A stretch of 64,000 bases of DNA from Suicoccus acidiformans. Its GTDB lineage: Bacteria; Bacillota; Bacilli; Lactobacillales; Aerococcaceae. The DNA lies in the NCBI RefSeq assembly GCF_003546865.1, contig NZ_CP023434.1, forward strand, positions 1,240,001 through 1,304,000. Reading direction: 5' to 3'. Made by a program: the position numbers and the translations under genes. The stretch's first letter is position 1, and each line of letters starts with the position of its first letter. Under the pieces are notes generated by a model. It saw nothing but the letters and a program-made list of their open reading frames with translations, was not told the origin of the DNA and did no database searches. This document shows, piece after piece, positions 58,504 through 59,606 of this stretch.

Positions 58504-58555
58504 TTGACATTTAGAACGAGTGTTCGTATACTGTAGATGTACAAACAACTGTTCG
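58504..58555 (+). promoter_or_regulatory. SOS promoter: sigma-A promoter with two LexA-box-like sites
   Basis: TTGACA (58504-58509), 17-base spacer and TATACT (58527-58532). The spacer contains AGAACGAGTGTTCG (58513-58526), 9 of 10 positions of the Firmicutes LexA box CGAAC-N4-GTTCG, and a second site CAAACAACTGTTCG (58542-58555) follows just downstream of the start site. LexA bound there would block the polymerase. Confidence 0.8.
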
Positions 58556-58579
58556 GGAATTTTACATAGGAGGGCTTAC

Positions 58580-58915
58580 ATGGAATTACCAATTTATTCA
58601 ACTACCAGTGCACTGTTTCAACGTATTTCAACTTGGGTCGATCCTTTTCTAGAAGACACCCCAGAGCAAGCCAAAGCTTACATCATGCCACTTTACCACG
58701 TAGAACAAACCTTACACCACCACTATGTTAAGCAAACACCTGTCAAGGTCACTTATGAGTACTACAATCAAGCCGGACGCATGGTCACCGACCAAGTTAA
58801 CTGCCTTGTGCATACCACTGTCGACATGGAGCGGCGAATTATCCTCAACGAATTGGATAGTCAGCGCACCTTTATTTTACCCATCGAACAAATTTTGCGG
58901 GTGGAAGCCAGTTAG
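58580..58915 (+). CDS. YolD-like protein under SOS-type control
   Basis: 111-aa protein whose C-terminal half (PVKVTYEYYNQAGRMVTDQVNCL...ERRIILNELDSQRTFILPIEQILRVEAS) resembles the YolD-like domain, a small beta-rich fold usually encoded beside Y-family DNA polymerases (UvrX/PolY2, UmuC type). The first 55 residues are helical and less familiar. ATG 58580 has GGAGGG eight bases upstream. No polymerase gene is adjacent, so it is an orphan. The promoter carries two LexA-box-like sites, which fits a DNA-damage role. The family assignment is by pattern and should be tested. Confidence 0.65.
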   Translation: MELPIYSTTSALFQRISTWVDPFLEDTPEQAKAYIMPLYHVEQTLHHHYVKQTPVKVTYEYYNQAGRMVTDQVNCLVHTTVDMERRIILNELDSQRTFILPIEQILRVEAS

Positions 58916-58977: not shown

Positions 58978-59021
58978 TAAAATCGAAGCCCCCTACCTAT
59001 TTGGTGGTGGCTTCGATTTTA
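58978..59021. terminator. Bidirectional terminator between the yolD-like and thiT-like genes
   Basis: AAAATCGAAGCC (58979-58990) pairs with GGCTTCGATTTT (59009-59020), with inner TACC/GGTG pairs, A-run on the left and T-run on the right. Confidence 0.92.
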
Positions 59022-59606
59022 TTAATCATTTAGTAAACTGGACGTTTCGCGACGGGTTAAGTATTTCGTGCGCTTTGGAATAATTAAGCTGGCCTTCGAT
59101 TGTGCCATGAGGCATAAGACGCCTGCACTCACCAGGGCCGATAAGACGGCACTGACCCAGAAGCTCACGTCTTGGATACCGATTGGACTCGGTGCGTCCA
59201 GAACCAAGGGAATGAGCCAGAAGCGTAGCAGATGCCATACCAGACTCACAAGGACCGACGCTGTTGTAATGTTCAAGTAGGTTGAAGATAGGCGTTTATT
59301 GTTCAAGGTACGCTGGGTATTTCTGGCGAATAGTCCTGCCAGCGCCACAAACAGAATCGGGAAGCTACCGTAGACAACCGCATCGACCCAATAGTCTGGG
59401 CGGCTGATGAGAAACTTTAAGACCCCACCGGCTACAAAGCCAGCTAAAAGCGTTGGATAAGGTCCGTGTCTTAAGGCTAGCCAAATTAAGCTGACCAGGA
59501 ATAGACCTCGGGTATAATCACTGAAACTTGCCACATAGCCAATCGCAATGGCTAGTACAACGGCGATTAGCCAATCCAGTAATAATCTTTGCGTTCGCTT
59601 ATTCAT
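59022..59606 (-). CDS. ThiT-like energy-coupling S component (membrane protein)
   Basis: 194-aa protein with about six hydrophobic segments. The order of segments (DYTRGLFLVSLIWLALRHGPYPTLLAGFVAGGVL...VVYGSFPILFVALAGLF) resembles ThiT, the thiamine-binding S component of ECF transporters, which would use a shared ECF motor encoded elsewhere. The Glu-Tyr pair used by ThiT for thiamine aligns to Tyr-Gly here, so the ligand may differ or the alignment be loose. It lies 10 bp after the RNase J2-like gene and ends at a terminator. Confidence 0.55.
   Translation of the reverse strand: MNKRTQRLLLDWLIAVVLAIAIGYVASFSDYTRGLFLVSLIWLALRHGPYPTLLAGFVAGGVLKFLISRPDYWVDAVVYGSFPILFVALAGLFARNTQRTLNNKRLSSTYLNITTASVLVSLVWHLLRFWLIPLVLDAPSPIGIQDVSFWVSAVLSALVSAGVLCLMAQSKASLIIPKRTKYLTRRETSSLLND

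Follow-up and report, generated by a model that had tools for sequence, protein, structure and literature searches.

A stand-alone, remotely YolD-like gene behind a LexA-type box pair in Suicoccus acidiformans and across Lactobacillales

YolD is the proposed UmuD counterpart of the Gram-positive polymerases UvrX and YqjW. In S. aureus, the accessible portions of two reports describe umuC and yolD as unlinked and both under LexA control (PMC6511836, PMC11442139), and the former places YolD in the WYL-like superfamily (PMC6511836). Extracts of a 2026 report present the N-terminal arm of YolD as modelled into the polymerase, together with small subunits that share only this arm (PMC12926913). In L. 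plantarum, the available part of an earlier study describes lp_1611 as a gene with a LexA-DinR motif that is raised about 32-fold with peroxide and that adjoins the opu operon with opposite orientation; in that part the gene is called an unknown ORF, perhaps a transcription regulator, and YolD is unmentioned (PMC2174512). The accessible text of another study gives 13 predicted LexA operons in Lactobacillaceae (PMC3616900), and that of a further paper holds nothing on yolD (PMC7683395). Searches of the literature for orphan or standalone YolD, and for YolD with UmuD, DinB or Lactobacillus, found no description of the family analysed below, which may be among the predicted operons in the regulon lists of PMC3616900.

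Here we describe a gene of this kind from a window of 64,000 nucleotides of Suicoccus acidiformans (contig NZ_CP023434.1, positions 1,240,001 to 1,304,000), whose genome measures 2.57 Mb. As it stands without a neighbouring polymerase gene, it is called the orphan throughout.

Promoter, operators and gene layout

The first-pass annotation had described a TTGACA-17-TATACT promoter with one LexA-like box in its spacer and a second just downstream, and this arrangement can be read in the sequence as claimed. The features of the locus are as follows.

58504–58532, + strand: sigma-70-type promoter TTGACA-17 nt-TATACT, read from the sequence (−35 TTGACA, 58504–58509; −10 TATACT, 58527–58532; 17-nt spacer)
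58513–58526: LexA-type box 1, AGAACGAGTGTTCG, wholly inside the promoter spacer, with one mismatch to CGAACRNRYGTTYG
58542–58555: LexA-type box 2, CAAACAACTGTTCG, which follows closely on the −10 and lies 29 bp from box 1, with two mismatches on the + strand and one on the − strand
58568–58574, + strand: ribosome-binding site AGGAGGG, separated from the ATG by 5 nt, read from the sequence
58580–58915, + strand: gene for a stand-alone, putatively YolD-like protein of 111 aa (ATG at 58580, stop at 58913–58915)
58979–59020: inverted repeat with A/T-rich ends, read from the sequence; probably a two-way terminator shared with the convergent gene at 59022–59606

The program-made reading frame starts earlier, from a GTG within box 1; the ATG with its ribosome-binding site was preferred as the start. 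The left side of the orphan is occupied by a divergent V-ATPase operon, and the right side by a convergent gene for a Thia_YuaJ-like membrane protein (Pfam, 34.4 bits), followed by a gene for an RNase J-like protein; the V-ATPase and RNase J names are those that we presume for these neighbours. None of them is a polymerase gene, in agreement with the first reading of the locus.

The significance of the boxes was assessed against shuffled and reversed controls. Single LexA-like boxes, with up to three mismatches allowed, are no commoner in the window than in shuffles (113 vs. 115), and the host genome shows no excess of GAACN4GTTC (29 vs. 48 for the reversed control). A box pair flanking a −10 gave one exact match in the window and none in 100 shuffles, and the exact TTGACA-17-TATACT pattern also occurs a single time in the window. 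Because the pair is kept in 35 of 35 homologues of the same bacterial family despite protein identity down to about 22%, the box pair around the −10 is not a chance occurrence.

The host has a LexA gene, recognised by the Pfam domains LexA_DNA_bind and Peptidase_S24. The same kind of box precedes the host lexA (CGAACACTTGTTTG) and dinB (GGAACAAATGTTCT), and uvrX1, one of two host UvrX-type polymerase genes, has an upstream box (TGAACAAATGTTCG) followed by TATAAT; no such box was found within 250 bases upstream of uvrX2. Thus, the features by which we judged membership of a LexA regulon, namely a LexA gene, a LexA-type box at the promoter and conservation in relatives, were all found for the orphan. 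Together with the like boxes before lexA, dinB and uvrX1, they argue for the LexA-type control that had been proposed for this promoter.

Relatives within the family and across Lactobacillales

A single-sequence search found the orphan in 35 of 76 genomes of the same family, the host included. At all 35 loci a −10 is flanked by two boxes (at most one mismatch per box allowed), and the GAACN4GTTC core of box 1 is perfect in 34. The spacing between the boxes is 27 bp in 25 loci, 28 bp in five and 26 bp in two, with 25, 29 and 34 bp once each, and the −35/box/−10 order of the window promoter is repeated in the homologous loci. The operators persist while identity to the window protein drops to 22–26% among the homologues. 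Wherever the stretches reach far enough, the neighbours are again V-ATPase, Thia_YuaJ-like and RNase J genes, and no BLAST match to UvrX was obtained in the stretches of the 34 relatives.

The exact promoter pattern was also scanned over contigs of 84,980 species, which yielded at least 120 stretches, 80 of which were examined; a protein scan of the same contig collection found no relative. In 57 of the 80, a small ORF of the size class of the orphan lies behind the promoter, and these loci were kept. Although the stretches are only about 8 kb long, a guanylate-kinase (gmk) cluster is present in 48 of the 57 kept loci and a cluster that we take to be recN in 39; in one locus, gmk, rpoZ, coaBC and opu neighbours were named by Pfam. 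UvrX was not found beside the orphan in any of the 57. The 23 stretches left out include UvrX-type polymerases (L093, L163), lexA-like genes of Collinsella-type bacteria (L128, L167), LysM-like proteins, 72-aa Enterococcus membrane proteins and unrelated ORFs, as well as loci for which ORF calling gave nothing usable; one of the latter, L126, is an orphan by later profile match.

Several other genes were seen behind the double-box promoter. The 72-aa membrane protein (MKSMRRFGLVL...) occurs in three Enterococcus genomes (L105 842–1057, − strand; L139 3731–3946, + strand; L140 7178–7393, + strand) and is possibly an SOS-induced division inhibitor. In Evansella vedderi, an 81-aa protein (L138 3401–3643, − strand) resembles by eye a bare WYL-like mini-domain, and small proteins that look LysM-like and YneA-like, also by eye, occur in Lachnospiraceae and Acidimicrobiaceae/Acidimicrobiales (L121, L152, L112, L136). 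In addition, the orphan on a contig labelled 'uncultured Clostridia' (L115) is nearly the same as the one in Limosilactobacillus oris (L107), and this contig is probably mis-binned.

To follow the family further, an alignment (A1) was made from 49 of the 57 kept loci and the window protein, with eight loci omitted as duplicates or divergent. The A1 profile has matches in 229 of 395 Lactobacillales genomes and 59 of 80 genera. Some of these matches are UvrX-linked YolDs (e.g., L271, L278), so that at this threshold the orphan is present in 229 genomes at most. Among 398 genomes of the class, 15 were matched, and outside the order there were only two matches, both weak. Forty matched loci were taken from across the order; two are UvrX-linked and the other 38 are orphan loci. 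The box pair is present in 30 of these 38, with no box deviating by more than one mismatch, a single box in two (L279, L290), and six loci, in groups f3 and f8, have no box pair. Since LexA is present in the f3 and f8 genomes sampled, LexA control of the orphan is not universal, and the idea that loss of the boxes tracks loss of LexA was not supported. In group f4, three genomes tested are without LexA. Five f4 loci, Streptococcus to judge from their content (L335, L328, L329, L330, L331), hold a related gene of 110–126 aa at another locus, without the box pair.

The orphan occupies a conserved chromosomal position, with gmk, recN, V-ATPase or RNase J genes as neighbours. A mobile or phage origin was rejected on this ground, and also because the window protein has no tblastn match in phages or plasmids. 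In L. herbarum (L098), the orphan lies between gmk and an OpuAC-type operon, the same place as lp_1611; judged by place and regulation rather than by sequence comparison, lp_1611 is likely an orphan orthologue.

YolD kinship, fold and the N-terminal arm

The product had been called YolD-like at first pass, a name that the HMM check failed to reach and that profile comparison upheld. Pfam YolD (PF08863) scores 16.1 bits against the window protein (E 0.012), below the cut-off of 27.5, and matches one of 50 aligned members at E up to 1; NCBIfam gave nothing credible for the orphan, and PHROGs nothing for the window protein. The two UvrX-linked YolDs of the host also miss the Pfam YolD model, so this cut-off does not discriminate here. 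In hhalign, 77 unique orphans compared with 37 UvrX-linked YolDs (from 39 loci, one of which gave no ORF and one a duplicate) yielded a probability of 95.6–96.5, against at most 0.1 for seven control families, the E-values of such single comparisons being rough. Furthermore, the orphan profile matches genes located directly after UvrX (L271, L278, L327, L332, L333). By sequence, then, the orphan is recognisable as a remote YolD relative. The proposal that it is not YolD at all was rejected by the profile–profile comparison, despite the sub-threshold Pfam score and the empty NCBIfam and PHROGs searches.

The structure model of the window protein has a pLDDT of 83.4, with about 97 over the barrel, and its first 30 residues are poorly predicted. 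The predicted layout consists of an N-terminal tail, a helix at residues 38–51 and a five-stranded WYL/Sm-like barrel at 55–110. The best PDB match of the model is the WYL domain of PafBC (Z 10.3, rmsd 2.1, 72 residues aligned; VIA-align), followed by the WYL domains of BrxR (Z 9.6) and DriD (Z 9.2) and then by Hfq (about 8). The model of a Lactobacillaceae member shows the same helix-plus-barrel with a lower best Z of 7.9, in the middling range. A profile search of the PDB gave nothing credible, and only weak matches, WYL-like or unnamed, came from a search of viral folds. The models thus point to a WYL-type, SH3-like barrel fold.

The orphans differ from UvrX-linked YolDs in the N-terminal region, where the DR..KW motif is present in 37 of 37 UvrX-linked YolDs vs. 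0 of 77 orphans. A hydrophobic pair is kept in the orphan tail at positions 19–20 (93–97% hydrophobic). The YolDs adjacent to the YqjW-like polymerases of Limosilactobacillus also lack DR..KW (L307, L308; by eye), and therefore the absence of the motif alone is no proof of lost polymerase binding. In these two loci (L307 1456–3443; L308), a divergent YqjW-like polymerase of about 512 aa is followed by a larger YolD without the motif. The same arrangement, with a broken polymerase frame and again a YolD without DR..KW, was seen in a Lactiplantibacillus (L317).

Candidate partners, rival roles and known systems

A genome-wide search for Y-family polymerases found three in the host, DinB and two UvrX types. 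Next to each host UvrX gene lies a YolD gene of its own, and behind that a further small gene. The order UvrX, YolD and third small gene was observed at L052 (6028–8245), L054 (4764–6830), L278 and L327, and the third gene was identified as DUF5960 in three of them, through Pfam in L052 and through BLAST in L278 and L327. The three genes perhaps form a cassette. The second UvrX–YolD pair of the host (L054 5059–11875) adjoins, by eye, an S24-type repressor-like gene and relaxase-like genes, a setting that resembles an integrative element.

Searches across the order detected UvrX in 333 of 395 Lactobacillales genomes, and because it is so common, most orphan carriers could still use it. The IMS family was searched for in 22 genomes, comprising those with the orphan and no UvrX match plus some others. 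Eight genomes, 97–100% complete, have the orphan and a DinB-type gene as their sole IMS gene (G003, G026, G087, G131, G193, G224, G338, G377). The box pair is present at the orphan in five of them (L061, L085, L283, L286, L336); in G131 and G224 the orphan is without it (L275, L277), and the orphan of the remaining genome, G377, was outside the comparison. Four g43 genomes had been removed from this list, as Limosilactobacillus has divergent YqjW-like polymerases with their own YolD, and G234 (85% complete) was removed as well. The view of Limosilactobacillus as UvrX-free was rejected once its polymerases of about 512 aa had been found. Since the orphan is kept in eight near-complete DinB-only genomes, its presence is not tied to UvrX.

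We infer a role as an adaptor, and put the chances at about even that the orphan is an SOS-induced, arm-less YolD-like protein that works without UvrX and serves a partner found more universally, DinB or RecA. LexA bound to box 1, between the −35 and −10, and to box 2, over the start site, would shut the window promoter, and RecA-triggered cleavage of LexA would release it strongly. The barrel and the short hydrophobic tail would then bind a damage-tolerance protein shared by all hosts, with DinB or RecA the likeliest, and the orphan would not be a small subunit of UvrX. Nothing in the evidence singles out DinB or RecA. More tentatively, the adaptor may belong to a UvrX-independent SOS arm in much of Lactobacillales, where, much like UmuD, it would manage DinB, RecA or the replisome after damage.

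The first-pass annotation had offered two alternatives, action on a polymerase encoded elsewhere or a damage role of its own. The former would make the orphan the small subunit of a UvrX-type polymerase whose gene lies at another locus, both being LexA-induced and meeting as proteins, as has been proposed for S. aureus, where umuC and yolD are unlinked and LexA-controlled in the accessible text of PMC6511836 and PMC11442139. This would suit a host with two UvrX-type genes and with LexA-type boxes before uvrX1, dinB and lexA, and an order in which UvrX is widespread, but both host UvrX genes are already served by adjacent YolDs, DR..KW is missing from every orphan, and the orphan is kept where DinB is the only Y-family polymerase. 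The first alternative is weakened by these observations and seems unlikely to us, which leaves a damage role of its own as the better half of that proposal. A decoy or brake, in which an arm-less YolD fills the barrel site on UvrX or RecA and so limits SOS mutagenesis, would be in keeping with a barrel that is retained where the arm motif is absent, and with the co-residence of the orphan and complete UvrX–YolD pairs in the host. Directed against UvrX, however, such a brake would be pointless in DinB-only genomes, and we regard this role as improbable.

Two further possibilities concern direct binding. Q-L/I-x-L-F-like stretches are the binding motif for the beta-clamp (DnaN), and such stretches at the start of the helix could dock the orphan on DnaN. 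The strict motif occurs in 10 of 77 orphans and in 0 of 37 UvrX-linked YolDs, compared with a mean of 1.6 and a maximum of 6 after shuffling of the orphans, although kinship among the members makes this contrast look more significant than it is. Clamp binding is nevertheless very improbable, as 67 of the 77 orphans, the window protein included, are without the strict motif, which sits in a confidently predicted, ordered helix. Judging from the models, the orphan might instead be a stand-alone WYL/Sm-like binder of ssDNA or RNA with a role in sensing damage products or in protecting them, given that its best PDB matches are WYL domains and then Hfq, and that the WYL domains of PafBC and DriD bind ssDNA according to the available parts of PMC11804915 and PMC12340889. 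PafB, however, needs several conserved arginines in the portion available of the former report (PMC11804915), whereas one listed column of the orphan alignment is basic in at least 40% of members (R86, 48%; a measure of column composition). The mean net charge is about zero, and that of the window protein is −5. We consider nucleic-acid binding a doubtful candidate, with little probability.

If the adaptor reading is right, a strongly SOS-controlled protein of much of Lactobacillales, an order of food, gut and clinical bacteria, is without a family model or function, and the role of the YolD barrel could be put to a direct test in a tractable strain, for example L. plantarum WCFS1. On this reading the orphan would present the YolD barrel naturally separate from its usual polymerase-binding arm, complementing the arm-only small subunits in the extracts of PMC12926913. 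Its parts, LexA boxes and a predicted YolD/WYL fold, are ordinary; their combination in a widespread, positionally conserved, SOS-type stand-alone barrel was not found described.

Among known systems, E. coli UmuD resembles the orphan by analogy only, as an SOS-induced small partner; no S24 peptidase domain was found by Pfam in the window protein. The WYL domains of PafBC, DriD, BrxR and CapW have the same fold as the orphan model, whereas the orphan would be a bare domain with no HTH and no widely conserved basic residues. The unlinked yolD of S. aureus (SACOL1986 / SAOUHSC_02144) is likewise a stand-alone YolD-type gene with a LexA box and a polymerase elsewhere; the accessible descriptions give one SOS box for it, in contrast to the pair here. 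Compared with YolD/YqjX (PF08863), the orphan has no adjacent polymerase and no DR..KW, scores below the Pfam cut-off, holds its own conserved position and is kept without UvrX, whereas the two are alike in a predicted WYL-like/SH3 barrel with a preceding helix, in remote profile similarity, in LexA-type control and in size.
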